Assembly: GCA_903864435.1 (NCBI GenBank)
Contig: CAIPFY010000371.1
Location: forward strand, 1-44,562
Direction of reading: 5' to 3'
DNA: 44,562 nt
From: an uncultured Chloroflexota bacterium
Lineage (GTDB): Bacteria; Chloroflexota; Anaerolineae; Aggregatilineales; Phototrophicaceae
Shown: positions 24,957 through 31,800 of the stretch, piece by piece
Layout of the letters: each line of letters starts with the position of its first letter
Position numbering within the stretch: position 1 is the first letter of the stretch
Translations under genes and position numbers: made by a program
The notes under the pieces: model-generated
The model's database searches: none
Seen by the model: only the letters and a program-made list of their open reading frames with translations
Told to the model about the DNA's origin: nothing

Positions 24957-24983
24957 GCGAGGTCGTTAGGACGAAGTGATAGA

Positions 24984-25021
24984 ACACCCTTTGCGGGATT
25001 GTCCGCGAAGGGTGTTTTTTT
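24984..25021. terminator. Terminator between korB and the convergent histidine-kinase gene
   Basis: ACACCCTT pairs with AAGGGTGT, extended inward by GCGG/CCGC, and is followed by a run of seven T on the plus strand. On the minus strand an A tract precedes the same stem. The kinase stop codon lies in the T run, so this end is shared by the convergent genes, with the plus strand the better terminator. Confidence 0.9.
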
Positions 25022-26477
25022 ATTTGGCGACGGGGTGCGTTTCCAGTGTGGGTAGGTGCGCTCTGGCGGGTAGATAGCCGTTCGGCGTGGCGCTGACCGG
25101 AGCGCGGCGCACAGTGATAGTGAACACGCTACCTTCCCCCACGCGGCTCTGTACCGCAATCGTCCCGCCCTGCTTTTCGATCAAGGCTCTGGCAATCGTC
25201 AGTCCCAGCCCGTAGCCTTCGCCATGTCGGGCGGGGTCGGCGCGGTAGAAACGTTGGAAGATGAGGGGCAGTTTGTCCTCCGGGATGCCCATGCCGGTAT
25301 CGCGCACGTGCAGGGCGATCTGCGCCGTTTCGACATCCACTTTTAGCTCGACCTGACCGCCGGTTGGCGTGAACTTGAAGGCGTTATCCAGTAGGATGAG
25401 CAGCACCTGTTTGAGCATGTCGCGGCGGCCTAGCGCGTTCACATCCGGCACGGCGCTCACGGTGAAGTTTTGCTTTAGGGGCAGGGCGGCGAATTGCCGC
25501 TGCACTTCTCCGATAAGCGAGGGTAGCGCCACATCATCCAGATCGAGGGTGCTGCTGTGTTCGGCGCGGGCGAGGGTCATCAAATCTTTGACCAACCGGA
25601 TCATGCGCTCACTTTCCGAAACGCTGTCGGAAAGTACGGCTTGACGGTCACTTTCGGAAATCGGCGGGTCACGCTGGAGCAGCGCCAGATTGCCGCGCAG
25701 GGTGGTCAGCGGCGTGCGGAGTTCGTGCGAAGCGTCTGCCAGAAATGACCGCTGTGCATCCAACGCCTGCGCCACCTTCTGATAGGCCGCGTCCAGCGCC
25801 CCCAGCATACTGTTGAAGGTGGTCGCAAGGCGGCCCACTTCGTCCTGCGGGCCGTCATAGGTCACGCGCCGCTGGAAATCGCGTTCTGTACCGATGACCT
25901 GTGCGGTGCGCGTCAGGTGGTCAATCGGGCGTAGTGACGCACCTGCGACGAACCAGACCCCCGCGACGGCGATTACCAGCGTGACCAGCCCACCCAGAAT
26001 CAGGCCGGTGCGCAGGGTGTTTAACGCCTGCTGCTGGTCTACAATCGAACGTGCCACCTGCAAGATTCCGATGGTCTGCCCGTCCGCGATCAACGGTTGG
26101 CTGTACACCAGCAGCGGCGTATCCTGTACCCACGCGATTTCGTAGACCGGCTGACCGCTTTGCAACTGACCGAGGCCGCCATTGCTGAGGGGCAGCGCAT
26201 GACCGTCGAGATTGTCGGTGCGCCCGACTACATTTCCTTTGGCATCGCAGGCTTGCCAGTAATTTTGCCGGTTGCCGACATTATCGGCAGGCCACTGGAA
26301 ATAGCCCAGTGCGAACGGGTCGGTTTGGACGAGGCGGCGCATTTCGGCGGCCAGCGTCGATTCCATGAAGGAACGGGTGGAATGTTCCATCGTGATATAC
26401 AGCAGCACGCCGAACCCCATCAAACTGAGCGCCAGTATGCTGCCGTAAAAGAGTGTGAGACGTGAACGAATGGACAT
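25020..26477 (-). CDS. Sensor histidine kinase (HisKA/HATPase_c, MprB-like)
   Basis: The 485-residue protein has a first membrane helix (about 8-30), an extracytoplasmic sensor region of roughly 125 residues, and a second helix (about 158-180). A HAMP domain follows (RPIDHLTRTAQVIG onward). HisKA has phospho-acceptor His251 in SHELRTPLTTL, and HATPase_c has an N-box (LLDNAFKFTP), DTGMGIPEDK and GYGLGLTIAR. It is thus a complete membrane kinase. ATG 26477 is preferred to GTG 26486 because AGAGGG then sits at a normal distance. The response-regulator gene lies 20 bases upstream and is certainly its partner. The sensor region has no recognisable ligand motif. Confidence 0.93.
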   Translation of the reverse strand: MSIRSRLTLFYGSILALSLMGFGVLLYITMEHSTRSFMESTLAAEMRRLVQTDPFALGYFQWPADNVGNRQNYWQACDAKGNVVGRTDNLDGHALPLSNGGLGQLQSGQPVYEIAWVQDTPLLVYSQPLIADGQTIGILQVARSIVDQQQALNTLRTGLILGGLVTLVIAVAGVWFVAGASLRPIDHLTRTAQVIGTERDFQRRVTYDGPQDEVGRLATTFNSMLGALDAAYQKVAQALDAQRSFLADASHELRTPLTTLRGNLALLQRDPPISESDRQAVLSDSVSESERMIRLVKDLMTLARAEHSSTLDLDDVALPSLIGEVQRQFAALPLKQNFTVSAVPDVNALGRRDMLKQVLLILLDNAFKFTPTGGQVELKVDVETAQIALHVRDTGMGIPEDKLPLIFQRFYRADPARHGEGYGLGLTIARALIEKQGGTIAVQSRVGEGSVFTITVRRAPVSATPNGYLPARAHLPTLETHPVAK

Positions 26478-26497
26478 AAGAAACACCCTCTGGCAGT

Positions 26498-27175
26498 CTA
26501 TTCCTCCAACCGCAGCGCGTAACCCACACCGCGTATGGTCTGAATCAGGCGGGATTTGTCACCCGTTTCTAGTTTACTCCGCAGGTGGCCGATATGCACT
26601 TCTAGCACGTTTGAGTCTCCAGTGAAGGGATAGCCCCACACCACTTCGAGAATGCGTTCGCGGGTATGCACGCGGCGTGGGTAACGCATGAAATACAGCA
26701 GTAGATCGTATTCCTTCGGGCTGAGAAGGATGATCTGCTCGCCGCGCCGTACCTGCCGCGTGACCGGATTGAGCGAAAGATCGTCGTAGGTCAGCATCCG
26801 ATCTTCTTCGTCCGGTTGCGAACGCCGTAGCAGCGCCCGGATGCGGGCCAGCAGTTCTTCCGGCTCGAACGGCTTGATGAGGTAATCATCCGCGCCGCTG
26901 TCCAAGCCCATCACGCGGTCTTCCAGCGCGTCTTTGGCGGTGAGCATGATGATGGGGATATGGTCGGCGCGGCTGACGCGGCGGGCGACTTCCAGCCCGT
27001 CCAGACCGGGCATCAGCCAGTCGAGGACGATCACATCCGGGCGGTGGGTTTGCGCTTGTGACAGGGCTTGCTGCCCGTCCATTGCCACCAAAACCTCGTA
27101 GCCTTCATACAACAGGGTGCGGCGCAGCATGTCAATCACTTTCTGGTTATCGTCCACAATCAAGATACTCGACAT
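26498..27175 (-). CDS. OmpR/PhoB-family response regulator
   Basis: The 225-residue protein has a receiver domain with acidic pocket (VDDN, residues 7-10), phospho-acceptor Asp52 in VLDWLMPG, Thr in MLTAKDA and Lys in LIKPFEPEE. It also has a C-terminal winged helix ending in GDKSRLIQTIRGVGYAL. AGGAGG 7 bases before ATG 27175 fixes the start; an upstream in-frame start at 27199 would add eight residues without a binding site. It is transcribed with the kinase gene and divergently from the DUF3105/DUF305 genes, which are its obvious candidate targets. Direct repeats with 11-base period lie in the 200-base divergent region. Confidence 0.95.
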   Translation of the reverse strand: MSSILIVDDNQKVIDMLRRTLLYEGYEVLVAMDGQQALSQAQTHRPDVIVLDWLMPGLDGLEVARRVSRADHIPIIMLTAKDALEDRVMGLDSGADDYLIKPFEPEELLARIRALLRRSQPDEEDRMLTYDDLSLNPVTRQVRRGEQIILLSPKEYDLLLYFMRYPRRVHTRERILEVVWGYPFTGDSNVLEVHIGHLRSKLETGDKSRLIQTIRGVGYALRLEE

Positions 27176-27248
27176 GCTGTAGCCTCCTGCACATTGCACT
27201 GGATGTGTGTTGATCTTACGTCAGATGGCTAAAGTGGCGTTAAGGCCA

Positions 27249-27266
27249 GTCTGAAGATTGTCTGAA
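27249..27266. promoter_or_regulatory. Direct repeat, possible response-regulator binding site
   Basis: GTCTGAA occurs at 27249-27255 and again at 27260-27266, an 11-base period, the normal spacing for tandem OmpR-family half sites. It lies between the divergent regulator and DUF3105 genes. A related TCTGAT/TCTCAGAT pair occurs near 27302-27323. No convincing -35/-10 pair could be assigned for either direction. Confidence 0.4.
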
Positions 27267-27375
27267 TCTCATTTCGGGGAGCATTAGCTTTTCTTCAGGA
27301 ATCTGATAACTGGTTCTCAGATAGTGATGGCATGATGCGGAGACTCGTTTTATCGGCTTAATGGGGAACATAAGA

Positions 27376-28005
27376 ATGGCTTCTGATAAGGAAACCAAGC
27401 GATCTGTCCGGCCTGCATCTGGTCAGAAAGCCGCGCCGGGTTGGCTGACGACTGATCGTATGTTCATCGGCGGCAGTGTGCTGGCGATTCTGGCGATTCT
27501 GGGTGTCATTGTGGTGGTTACAGCACAGAATGGGGACGCGCTTAACCGGCAGATTGACGGCGTGCAGATCATCAACGTCCCCGCGCCGGGGCATGTGACC
27601 ACGCCCGTGACCTATGAGCAGATTCCGCCTGCGGGCGGGTTGCACCATCCGGTGTGGCAGCAGTGCGGCGTATATACCGAGCCGATTGCTAACGAACATG
27701 CGGTGCATTCGCTGGAGCATGGCGCGGTGTGGATTACCTATCAACCCGATCTTCCGGCGGATCAGGTGGCGATTCTCCAGACGATTACGGTGCAGAGTAC
27801 CCACCGCCTGCTCAGCCCGTATTCCGGCATCTCCAGCCCGATCATTTTGACGGCGTGGGGGTATCAACTGCCGCTGGAACGGGCGGACGATCCGCGTTTG
27901 GCGCAGTTCCTACAGAAGTACGAACAGGGCAAATCCACGCCGGAGATGGGCGCGACCTGCAACGGGGGCGAAACGCGCACGTTGGCGCAGATTGGGCAGC
28001 GTTAG
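27376..28005 (+). CDS. DUF3105 membrane-anchored protein
   Basis: The 209-residue protein has a short basic cytoplasmic start, one membrane helix (about residues 31-50) and an extracytoplasmic domain. That domain is rich in conserved His: GGLHHPVWQQCGVY and NEHAVHSLEHGAVWITYQP, the latter diagnostic of DUF3105. Biochemical function of the family is unknown; the clustered His, Glu and a Cys look like a metal site. The ATG at 27376 has GGGGAA 7 bases upstream; ATG 27361 has none. The DUF305 gene follows after 6 bases, and the two-component genes are divergent, so a regulated envelope pair is likely. Confidence 0.85.
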   Translation: MASDKETKRSVRPASGQKAAPGWLTTDRMFIGGSVLAILAILGVIVVVTAQNGDALNRQIDGVQIINVPAPGHVTTPVTYEQIPPAGGLHHPVWQQCGVYTEPIANEHAVHSLEHGAVWITYQPDLPADQVAILQTITVQSTHRLLSPYSGISSPIILTAWGYQLPLERADDPRLAQFLQKYEQGKSTPEMGATCNGGETRTLAQIGQR

Positions 28006-28011
28006 CGCACG

Positions 28012-28626
28012 ATGATGGAACAAAACCCTATTTTCACGACTCCCGCGCAGGCTTTGCGCGGGCTGCTTATGTTGCTGATCGGCGGGTTACTAGGGGCGCT
28101 GGCTGTGCTGGTCTGGCAGGGGGCACGGGCAGCCCCCGTCAGCGAACCATCGCCGGAAACCGGCTTCGCCCGCGATATGATCGTGCATCACAATCAGGCG
28201 ATTGAGATGGCGCTGCTGGTCTATAATCAGGGTTCGGACAGCGTTCTGAAGGGGATCGCGCTGGACATGCTGTTGACGCAGCAGACGCAAATCGGGCAGA
28301 TGCAGGGCTGGTTGCATGTGTGGAATCTGCCGATTGCAGGGACTGTGCTGCCGATGACATGGATGGGAATGCCTACTAGCGGATTGATGCCGGGTATGGC
28401 TACCTCGAACCAGATGGCTGCGCTGCGCGATTCTTCGGGGACTGCGGCGGACAGGCTATTTATTCAACTTATGATTCCGCATCATCAGTCCGGGATTCAC
28501 ATGGCGAACGCCATTCTAAGCCTCACCTCGATTCCGGCGGTGCGTGACCTTGCCCTGTCGGTCGTGACTTCACAGGAGCGCGAGATTCAGGAATTGGATA
28601 CCCTCCTCACTCAACTTCCGGCATGA
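28012..28626 (+). CDS. DUF305 protein (CopM-like, exported)
   Basis: The 204-residue protein has an N-terminal hydrophobic segment (about 14-38) serving as signal or anchor. A four-helix DUF305 domain follows, with the paired motifs FARDMIVHHNQAIEMALLV and LMIPHHQSGIHMANAIL. Each contains HH plus a nearby Met, as in family members that bind copper; the cyanobacterial CopM is a DUF305 protein encoded with a two-component system. Copper or other metal binding outside the membrane is thus inferred. It starts 6 bases after the DUF3105 stop. A DUF305/DUF3105 pairing also occurs in other bacteria as far as I recall. ATG 28012 or 28015 could be the start. Confidence 0.85.
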   Translation: MMEQNPIFTTPAQALRGLLMLLIGGLLGALAVLVWQGARAAPVSEPSPETGFARDMIVHHNQAIEMALLVYNQGSDSVLKGIALDMLLTQQTQIGQMQGWLHVWNLPIAGTVLPMTWMGMPTSGLMPGMATSNQMAALRDSSGTAADRLFIQLMIPHHQSGIHMANAILSLTSIPAVRDLALSVVTSQEREIQELDTLLTQLPA

Positions 28627-28643: not shown

Positions 28644-28663
28644 ACCCCCCATTTTTGGGGGGT
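28644..28663 (+). terminator. Hairpin after the DUF305 gene
   Basis: ACCCCCCA and TGGGGGGT form a perfect 8-bp stem around a TTTT loop, 18 bases after the stop. Only a short T-poor tail follows, so it is a possible but weak terminator. Confidence 0.5.
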
Positions 28664-28863: not shown

Positions 28864-31800
28864 ATGTCTGATTATTACAAGTTTACTGCACAACAGTCGC
28901 TGGATGATTTACATGCTCGACGCGAGGGGCTAACCGACGCCGAGGTATCGGCGCGTCAAGTGGAATATGGGCGGAACAGCCTTCCCGCTGGCGAGGGGAC
29001 AAACTGGATTAAGCTGGTTTTAGGCCAGTTTACCGACCTGATGGTGATTATCTTGATTGCGGCTGCCGTCATCTCGGCGTTCCTCGGTGACTCGAAAGAT
29101 GTGGTCGTCATTCTGGCGATTGTGATTCTGAACGCGATCATTGGCACTTATCAGGAATTTCAGGCGGAGAAGGCTCTAGCGGCCTTGAGCGCGATGCAGG
29201 TGCCGCTGGTACGGGTGCGCCGTGCCGGTGAAGTGTTGCAGATCAGCGCCGAGGAACTGGTTCCCGGCGACATTGTGATTATCGGTGAAGGTGATCGCAT
29301 TCCGGCGGATGGCCGTTTGATTGAGAACCGCAGTCTGCTGGTGGAAGAAGCCATGCTCACCGGCGAGTCGGTGCCAGTTGAAAAGCAAATCGCGCCGGTT
29401 GAAGGGGAGCAGGTTGGTATTGGCGACCGTGCCAACATGCTGTTCATGGGGACGACTATCAACTTCGGTCGCGGTGAAATGGTGGTGACGCGCACGGGAC
29501 TCAAGACTGAACTGGGCAATATTGCCGCCATGCTGCTGCAAGTTCAGGAAGGTATATCACCGCTTCAACGCCGTTTGAATAAACTGGGACAAATTCTAGC
29601 CAGTGGCGCGGGCATTATTGTCGCGGTGGTCTTTGTGGCGGGCGTGCTGCGCGGCATCCCGTGGCAGGATATGTTCTTGACTTCCATCAGCCTCGCTGTG
29701 GCGGCTGTGCCGGAAGGGTTGCCGGCGCTGGTGACGATCAGCCTGTCGTTGGGTGCATCGCGCATGGTACAGCGGCACGCGCTCATCCGGCGGTTGCCCG
29801 CTGTGGAAACGCTCGGTTCGGTGACGATCATCTGCTCGGACAAAACCGGCACGCTGACCAAGAACGAAATGACCGCCACCCGGCTCGCGCTGCCGGGGCA
29901 TGATGAGGTGACGATCACCGGCATCGGCTATACCCCGCAAGGCAAATTTCAAGTCGCGCAGAACACGGTGGATTTTTCGATAGATTATCCGCTGCGGCGC
30001 TTCGTGATGGCGATCACACTTTCCACAAATGCCCATCTGCAAGAAGGCGATCGTGAAGGTAGCTTGAATGTGGTGGGCGATACCACCGAAGGCGCGTTGC
30101 TGGTGGCCGCGCAGAAAGTGGGTTGGTCGCGGCAGCAGTTGGAAACCGAAATGCCGCGTGTTTCCGAACTGCCGTTCAGCAGCGAACGCAAAGCCATGAC
30201 GACTGTGCATCAGGTGGAGAGCGTCGAAGGCAAGCGTTTGTTCGCAGACAGCGCCTATATCTCGATTACGAAGGGTGCGCCCGACCAACTGCTGGAGTGG
30301 GCGACCCATGAAATGCTGTCGAATGAGCCATCGGCGCTGACAGCCGAACGCCGCCACGAATGGCGTTCGCGGATTGATTCGCTGGCGCAAAGTGGATTGC
30401 GGGTGCTAGGAATCGCCTATCGCCCGTTGAATGAAGTGCCGGAAGAACTTCAGGTGGAGCAGATTGAGCGCGGCCTATACTTGCTCGGTTTGGTCGGCAT
30501 CCTCGACCCGGCGCGCCCCGAAGCGCGGGAGGCTGTGCAGACGGCGAAAGACGCGGGCATTCGCTCGATTATGATTACCGGCGATCATGCGTTGACCGCT
30601 GAAGCCATTGCGCGTGATCTGGGTATTCTCGCGGAAGGCCAGCGCGTCGTGACCGGCGCTCAACTCGACTCGATGACCGATGACCAACTGCGCGAGTCGC
30701 TCAAACACACCTCGGCTTTTGCCCGTGTGTCGCCGGAACACAAGCTCCGTCTGGTGCGGGTGCTGCAAGCGCAGGATCATATCGTGGCGATGACCGGAGA
30801 CGGCGTAAACGATGCCCCCGCGTTGAAACAGGCCGATATTGGCGTGGCGATGGGGATCACCGGCACCGATGTCAGCAAAGGCGCGGCAGAGATGGTGCTG
30901 ACGGATGACAACTTCGCGTCCATCGTGGCGGCGGTTGAAGAAGGCCGTGTCATCTACGACAACATTCGTAAGTTCATCAAGTATTTGCTCAGTTCCAATG
31001 TGGGCGAAATCCTTGTGATGTTCATTGCGCTCATCGCTGGTTTGAAAATTCCGCTGCTGGCGATTCAGATTTTGTGGATCAACCTCGTCACAGATGGTTT
31101 GCCGGCGATTGCGTTGGGCTTCGAGCCTGCCGAAAAAGGCGTGATGAAGCGCAAGCCGCGCCCGATTACGGAAAGCATATTTGCTGGCGGGTTGGGCATA
31201 CACATTTTCTGGGTTTCTATCCTGCTGACCAGCATTACGCTAGGAGCGTATCTGTATGGATATGCTTCTCACGGGATGAACCCGTTGAGCAGCACATTGG
31301 GCGTGGAGACGCTGAACGCCGAGCAAATGCAGCGGCTTCTGGGCGAAAAGACCTATACTGATCTCGTTCCCACCAACTGGGACAGCATGACTACCGATGA
31401 ACGGGTGACGCTGTTGAAGGCGCACGAAACAGATGCGGCGACGGCAGAGGAAGGCAGCGGCGGCATTCTGGGCAAAGCGGAACAACTGCCGCGCACGTTG
31501 GGGTTCACCGTACTGGCACTGGGGCAGATTTTTCATGTGATGGCGATCCATGCCGGCGATCGCGTGTCGTTCTTCAAGACGTGGTTTAGCAAGAACCGCC
31601 TGCTGCTGGTGGCCGTCCTGTCTACCTTCCTGCTGCAATTGGGTGTGGTTTACCTGCCTTTTATGCAGGCGACGTTCGAGACATCCCCGTTGAGCCTAAC
31701 GGAACTCGCGCTGGCGATTGGGCTATCCGCTGTAATTCTGGCGGCGGTCGAGGTCGAAAAGGCGCTGCGGCGCTCTCGTTCTCCACTAGCGGCTGATTAA
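28864..31800 (+). CDS. P2A-type cation-transporting P-type ATPase (Ca2+-ATPase-like)
   Basis: The 978-residue pump has all P-type domains: an N-terminal cation-ATPase segment, an A domain with MLTGESVPVEK and phosphorylated Asp326 in CSDKTGTLTKNE. The N domain, the hinge TGDGVNDAPALKQADIG and ten membrane helices follow. M4 has AAVPEGLPALV and M6 has NLVTDGLPAIALG, the residues that form Ca2+ site II and part of site I in SERCA/PacL pumps; it lacks the CPx motif of copper pumps. It therefore most likely exports Ca2+ (or Mn2+). Residues about 810-870 form a long non-conserved loop between late helices. GGAAGGTGAT upstream is the ribosome-binding site. Confidence 0.93.
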   Translation: MSDYYKFTAQQSLDDLHARREGLTDAEVSARQVEYGRNSLPAGEGTNWIKLVLGQFTDLMVIILIAAAVISAFLGDSKDVVVILAIVILNAIIGTYQEFQAEKALAALSAMQVPLVRVRRAGEVLQISAEELVPGDIVIIGEGDRIPADGRLIENRSLLVEEAMLTGESVPVEKQIAPVEGEQVGIGDRANMLFMGTTINFGRGEMVVTRTGLKTELGNIAAMLLQVQEGISPLQRRLNKLGQILASGAGIIVAVVFVAGVLRGIPWQDMFLTSISLAVAAVPEGLPALVTISLSLGASRMVQRHALIRRLPAVETLGSVTIICSDKTGTLTKNEMTATRLALPGHDEVTITGIGYTPQGKFQVAQNTVDFSIDYPLRRFVMAITLSTNAHLQEGDREGSLNVVGDTTEGALLVAAQKVGWSRQQLETEMPRVSELPFSSERKAMTTVHQVESVEGKRLFADSAYISITKGAPDQLLEWATHEMLSNEPSALTAERRHEWRSRIDSLAQSGLRVLGIAYRPLNEVPEELQVEQIERGLYLLGLVGILDPARPEAREAVQTAKDAGIRSIMITGDHALTAEAIARDLGILAEGQRVVTGAQLDSMTDDQLRESLKHTSAFARVSPEHKLRLVRVLQAQDHIVAMTGDGVNDAPALKQADIGVAMGITGTDVSKGAAEMVLTDDNFASIVAAVEEGRVIYDNIRKFIKYLLSSNVGEILVMFIALIAGLKIPLLAIQILWINLVTDGLPAIALGFEPAEKGVMKRKPRPITESIFAGGLGIHIFWVSILLTSITLGAYLYGYASHGMNPLSSTLGVETLNAEQMQRLLGEKTYTDLVPTNWDSMTTDERVTLLKAHETDAATAEEGSGGILGKAEQLPRTLGFTVLALGQIFHVMAIHAGDRVSFFKTWFSKNRLLLVAVLSTFLLQLGVVYLPFMQATFETSPLSLTELALAIGLSAVILAAVEVEKALRRSRSPLAAD

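Follow-up and report, generated by a model that had tools for sequence, protein, structure and literature searches.

A divergent two-component system and a DUF3105–DUF305 gene pair as a probable copper-responsive envelope module in an uncultured Chloroflexota bacterium

Two described copper systems are the closest references for the locus discussed here. In C. glutamicum, the CopRS system (cg3281-cg3289) is encoded divergently from an envelope copper operon, both sides are activated strictly with copper, and a single site, TGAAGATTT-N2-TGAAGATTT, is bound (PMC3140484). The Synechocystis genes copM, copR and copS belong to a single operon; CopM is a periplasmic protein that binds Cu(I), and its loss leads to copper sensitivity (PMC4335983).

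The window (the whole stretch of DNA that was analysed, 44,562 nucleotides) is a single contig from a 5.39-Mb genome in 464 contigs, whose close relatives are MAGs of Chloroflexota (Anaerolineae). It contains the genes of a kinase and an OmpR-type regulator on the minus strand, followed after a 185-bp gap by a DUF3105 and a DUF305 gene on the plus strand. The comparison with relatives suggests that this locus works as a small switch for sensing copper, and that copper handling by DUF3105 has been overlooked. DUF3105 is found in 129 of 301 sampled Chloroflexota genomes and also in Actinomycetota and Deinococcota, and no paper naming it was found in the open-access literature searched. Because it pairs with DUF305 and is found between SCO1 and PCuAC, it acquires a role in envelope copper handling that can be tested, and the small divergent promoter is where the signal could be read out.

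Layout of the locus and its intergenic sites

The sensor histidine kinase gene (25020-26486, minus strand; HAMP, HisKA and HATPase profile matches) and the OmpR/PhoB-type response regulator gene (26498-27175, minus strand; Response_reg and Trans_reg_C profile matches, ATG start at 27175) are separated by the divergent promoter region (27176-27360, delimited from the sequence and by comparison with relatives) from the DUF3105 gene (27361-28005, plus strand) and the DUF305 gene (28012-28626, plus strand), which are spaced by 6 bp. This layout agrees with the first-pass annotation, which had described a complete kinase/regulator pair divergent from two genes. On one side, the module is flanked by a terminator-like hairpin of 17 pairs with a T tail (24981-25018, plus strand, from a terminator scan), which divides the kinase gene from an upstream oxidoreductase operon. 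On the other side is an ATPase gene (at 28864), which is called Ca-type here as Ca types are its nearest matches, yet it scores under their cut-offs. A C6-ATTTTT-G6 hairpin just 3' of DUF305 (28645-28662, plus strand), seen in the sequence, is a possible transcript end; it has no T run behind it and is absent from the terminator-scan list. The Ca-ATPase and a DsbA-like gene (31910) had earlier been suggested as possible members of the same stress response, but this suggestion is not retained, because neither gene adjoins the module in three related loci, namely L056, L057 and L055 (for which G001/L003 are other handles), and because the C6/G6 hairpin intervenes directly after DUF305. Besides DUF305, no copper gene adjoins the module in the window. 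Away from the window, the same genome encodes a copper-type P-ATPase (G000:C214:2884-4656; TIGR01511, 597 bits).

The 11-base direct repeat noticed earlier in the gap is actually a repeat of the 7-base GTCTGAA at an 11-bp period. Its copies at 27249-27255 and 27260-27266 are the tandem half-sites of box A (GTCTGAA-N4-GTCTGAA; 27249-27266, plus strand), the proposed regulator site. When the four loci that share the kinase/regulator genes (the window, L055, L056 and L057) are compared, CTGAA-N6-CTGAA is found at the same gap position in all of them and the rest of the gap sequence has largely diverged; this shared position makes box A more than a chance repeat. Box B (27284-27298, plus-strand coordinates) is an 11-bp repeat, degenerate in the window (TTAG-N7-TCAG) and exact (TCAG-N7-TCAG) in the other three loci; its half-site TCAG is the complement of CTGA, that is, the box A half-site on the opposite strand. 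Regulators of the OmpR/PhoB family usually have operators built as tandem repeats with an 11-bp period, and the opposite orientation of the two boxes suggests control of both gene sets. In L057, a TnpB-like transposase gene (L057:765-1922) is inserted between the regulator gene and the DUF3105 promoter, and the tandem sites remain on the DUF3105 side of it. In the window's own genome, CTGAARANNNNCTGAAWY is matched exactly at two places, the one outside the locus being inside coding sequence. Matching of the site pattern gave 19 matches against 2 for the reversed-pattern control, a gap for which base-order bias can account; the one-mismatch matches are placed only roughly, and no genome-wide regulon is derived from them.

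The sensor kinase, the regulator and the two envelope proteins

In the extracytoplasmic sensor region of the kinase, M41, M49, C80 and H96 (residue numbers count from the GTG at 26486; translation could also start at an ATG three codons further on) are common to the three intact module kinases. In the ten relatives compared, M41, M49 and C80 are replaced throughout and H96 is kept in two. Methionine, cysteine and histidine are the usual Cu(I) ligands, and from the three sequences we infer that these four residues may bind copper. Across 41 related genomes, kinase orthologues of at least 60% identity occur only beside DUF3105, and the sole one other than the window kinase is that of G001 (61%). 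The own-genome paralogue is at 38%, the kinase of G050 at 50% and every remaining kinase at 43% or less. The G050 kinase is not taken as a module orthologue, as it is in another context, adjoined by a sugar-kinase-like gene, lacks the Met/Cys ligands and belongs to a genome without detected DUF305 or DUF3105. The regulator shares 72-78% identity with the corresponding proteins of L055, L056 and L057. It occurs together with both DUF genes only in the window, L055 and L057, the contig of the last stopping inside or before the kinase gene; in L056, the two-component genes are accompanied by DUF3105 but not by DUF305. The arrangement with both DUF genes, known from three loci and one partial one, is rare, and broad synteny of the kinase and regulator genes with the DUF3105–DUF305 pair is not supported. 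Neither protein reaches the cut-offs of the heavy-metal two-component models TIGR01386/TIGR01387 (kinase 201.9 versus 292.55, regulator 201.4 versus 279.2). The two-component proteins of C. marinum encoded at an exact CopR box are likewise under these cut-offs (194.3 and 164), so this failed test carries little weight.

The DUF305 protein is, by sequence, a CopM relative: it scores over the curated cut-offs of PF03713 (150.6 bits versus 27) and of the CopM model NF049983 (94.6 versus 90), and it matches solved CopM chains. It has two HH..M motifs, DMIVHHNQAIEM and LMIPHHQSGIHM, which are at least 93% conserved across the family, and also a Met-rich linker. A hydrophobic helix is present at about residues 15-40 (judged by eye), in agreement with a TM-anchored or secreted protein. 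The DUF3105 protein (PF11303, 156.8 bits versus a cut-off of 25) also starts with a hydrophobic helix, residues 31-62 in the model, which would be a TM helix preceding an extracytoplasmic domain. As both plus-strand genes encode such an N-terminal helix, export or membrane anchoring is likely. In the family alignment of DUF3105, H78, H95, H116 and H120 are near-invariant, and H95, H116, E119, G121 and W166 are invariant across the family; C102 and C200 are kept in at least about three quarters of the members. The earlier description of two exported genes with HH..M or clustered histidine motifs is thus upheld, export being likely.

The DUF3105 model, calculated from 92 sequences, has pLDDT values of 97-98 over most of the domain, and the order of its strands and helices is as in thioredoxin. 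The top rows of a Foldseek search are mostly thioredoxins, with a best E of 0.039, and the VIA comparisons gave Z of 6.0-6.5 (for example, rmsd 2.4 over 85 residues), a range that may also reflect a common arrangement. The likeness of the model to thioredoxin is thus structural only, at the level of the fold. At the start of the second helix, the CxxC is absent, the sequence there being YQPDLPADQ, without cysteine. P160 precedes the fourth strand, where thioredoxin has its cis-proline, as compared by eye. H116 and H120 are spaced by one helical turn, either on the first domain helix or at its end, and H95 is near in sequence. A profile-profile test of DUF3105 against a DsbA-like set found no relation, and its recruitment by an iterated DsbA profile is therefore read as model drift. 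No solved chains matching DUF3105 by sequence were found. The likeliest role of DUF3105 would be that of a copper chaperone or storage partner. A bolder proposal, which is offered tentatively and may well prove wrong, is that DUF3105 represents a new class of thioredoxin-fold, His-rich, CxxC-less copper-binding envelope proteins that partner CopM/DUF305, with this locus as a minimal copper-sensing unit dedicated to the pair. Two further forms of DUF3105 were seen. In L146, L150 and L153 (G232, G243 and G251), it is fused C-terminally to a multi-pass membrane protein of about 500 residues with a HEFGHA motif (a sub-cut-off Peptidase_M50 match in one of the three), and in L080 and L099, the DUF3105 genes occur as a tandem pair.

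Genomic context and the metal handled

DUF305 is found within 300 bp of DUF3105 in 56 of the 79 nearest DUF3105 loci, a set that is redundant (with many Herbidospora, Salinispora and Arthrobacter loci) and biased to near relatives. The gene order is divergent in 24 of these 56, DUF3105-DUF305 in 21 and DUF305-DUF3105 in 11, and the pairing spans Actinomycetota, Deinococcota and Chloroflexota. It is intact in nine of the ten plasmid regions inspected (hosts: Deinococcus, Rubrobacter, Rhodococcus, Streptomyces, Kineococcus, Kocuria and Paenarthrobacter), an IS110 following DUF3105 in the tenth, and most plasmid loci have CopC, CcdA/ResB/CcsB, CDF or metal ATPase genes nearby. In the Chloroflexota sample, DUF305 is present in 48/301 genomes. 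According to the listed coordinates, the pair is adjacent in just four of the 301 (the window's own genome, G065, G115 and G180), so the linkage is uncommon within this phylum.

In several relatives, the neighbours of the pair are copper genes. In L200 (G065, same class), SCO1, DUF3105, DUF305 and PCuAC follow each other, together with rhodanese, cupredoxin, multicopper oxidase and heavy-metal ATPase genes. In the same-genus genomes G009, G012 and G014, DUF305 and DUF3105 are in one island with two copper-type ATPases, which in G014 score 598 and 585 with TIGR01511 (cut-off 397). The island families were scanned with the G014 and G012 proteins, the rest being assigned by similarity. In these islands, the genes that come after DUF305 encode a NarL-type regulator and a kinase and are unrelated to the two-component genes of the module, and DUF3105 adjoins redoxin-like and DsbA-like genes (in G012 also a CcdA-like gene). 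The same islands (L192-L198) also contain c-type-cytochrome-like, YceI, DUF2085 and rhodanese genes. A copper ATPase and a CsoR-family repressor are beside DUF3105 in Arthrobacter echini (L062) and in an Anaerolineaceae locus (L099). Other genes, some of them housekeeping, flank the pair in Herbidospora (L064) and Salinispora (L125); among the scanned neighbours in Herbidospora, Salinispora and Nocardiopsis, no copper genes were found. In L094, the neighbour is a cytochrome bd oxidase subunit gene. Genes for lspA/signal peptidase II and lnt recur near DUF3105-DUF305 or copper clusters (L105:7033-7593, L167, L169, L137 and L214).

The CopM-model score, the pairing with DUF305, the copper islands, the dedicated kinase, its sensor residues and the conserved tandem sites together argue that the locus is probably a self-contained copper-responsive envelope module, with DUF3105 and DUF305 as its copper handlers. 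Context gives the copper reading good support and sequence gives it moderate support, and the same lines of evidence favour the first-pass proposal of a copper-type envelope module with DUF3105 as metal-handling partner. In the mechanism that we propose, the gene order, the protein families, the conservation of the sites, the clade-specific sensor residues, the copper genes near relatives of the pair and the predicted fold come from the analysis, and the identity of the metal, the binding of the regulator and the direction of copper transfer are what we infer. The kinase would respond to an excess of Cu(I) (or Ag(I)) on the outer side of the membrane via M41, M49, C80 and H96 and would phosphorylate the OmpR-type regulator. 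This regulator would then bind the two opposed 11-bp tandem sites in the 185-bp gap, and could thereby activate its own operon as well as the divergent DUF3105-DUF305 operon. Outside the membrane, DUF305 would bind copper through its HH..M motifs and its Met-rich linker, and DUF3105, with its four histidines and two cysteines, may bind copper and pass it to or from DUF305, or alter its redox state.

Instead of copper, the module might handle a different soft or transition metal (Zn, Cd, Hg or more than one of them), the pair then acting as a general metal sink of the envelope. Zn/Cd-like contexts are indeed seen in Deinococcus QL22 (L134), where ZntA-like ATPase, CDF and ArsR genes surround the pair, and in L104, with CDF and a heavy-metal ATPase that scores higher on Zn/Cd than on Cu models; on a Streptomyces plasmid (L171), an alkylmercury lyase gene is nearby. 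This reading is nevertheless rather improbable, since the neighbours with the most specific roles are copper genes (SCO1, PCuAC, CsoR family, CopC and copper ATPases) and CopM, the characterised DUF305 protein, binds copper. Alternatively, the module could provide copper for respiratory oxidases or c-type cytochromes, or assemble them, instead of detoxifying it. This would agree with SCO1 and PCuAC flanking the pair in L200 and with a CcsB/ResB/CcdA or cytochrome oxidase assembly gene near the pair in L137, L169 and L170, but it is considered unlikely, because genes for copper-export ATPases, multicopper oxidase and CsoR-type repressors serve detoxification and because a two-component system of its own, acting through one local site, resembles a stress response.

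The third explanation concerns the signal: the kinase and regulator would sense general envelope or thiol stress, and their adjacency to the metal pair would be incidental. Their family scores are generic, WalK and PhoB being best yet under cut-off, and the identity of the regulator to the corynebacterial CopR (42%) does not stand out against L113 (40%). The recognition helix VHIG-LR-KL, which is shared with the corynebacterial CopR, is not taken as a sign of kinship, as an overall identity of 42% is ordinary for the family. Against an incidental adjacency, the kinase has orthologues only at DUF3105 loci, conservation extends to the intergenic sites, and the Met/Met/Cys/His ligands are common only to the module kinases, which leaves this explanation with little probability.

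Comparison with described copper systems

The closest CHARACTERISED system is C. glutamicum CopRS, with which the window shares an OmpR-type pair divergent from envelope genes and one local site of 11-bp period. In its geometry, the corynebacterial-type divergent promoter with such a tandem site is present in the window, the regulator site being putative. The CopR box TGAAGATTTgaTGAAGATTT and the window sequence TGAAGATTgtcTGAATCT are alike in 13 of 18 bases; this likeness was spotted post hoc and has a chance of about 1% in such a region by a hand estimate, and is thus a lead only. On a C. marinum plasmid (L214), an exact CopR box is found between CueP-multicopper oxidase-TlpA and copRS-HMA-copper ATPase-DUF305 genes, with DUF305 inside the copRS operon there. 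The corynebacterial divergent operon encodes a secreted protein (a CueP-family member in C. marinum), a multicopper oxidase, the product of an unknown gene and TlpA, without DUF3105, and the corynebacterial system has a copper ATPase and an HMA protein, both of which the window module lacks. No multicopper oxidase, CueP-type protein or copper ATPase gene is beside the window module. Although the layout is alike, the regulated genes differ, and the module is therefore not filed as a member of the CopRS regulon.

The Synechocystis copMRS genes are similar in that a DUF305 copper-binding protein is encoded with an envelope-sensing two-component system. They differ by forming a single operon instead of a divergent arrangement, by having the HME-RND pump copBAC as part of the system, and by the absence of DUF3105. 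With this difference in operon structure and the unrelated NarL-type pair that follows DUF305 in the same genus, close homology to copMRS is not supported for the module, which the first-pass annotation had called possibly copMRS-like. At the level of the proteins, the CopM/DUF305 metallochaperones (NF049983, PF03713) share the HH..M motifs with the window protein, which scores over their cut-offs and differs by its likely N-terminal TM anchor. The SCO1/SenC thioredoxin-fold copper chaperones resemble DUF3105, only at the level of the fold, in the membrane-anchored thioredoxin-like structure predicted for it, in having cysteines and histidines and in the copper context, SCO1 adjoining DUF3105 in L200, but DUF3105 differs from them in having neither a PF02630 match nor a CxxxC site.
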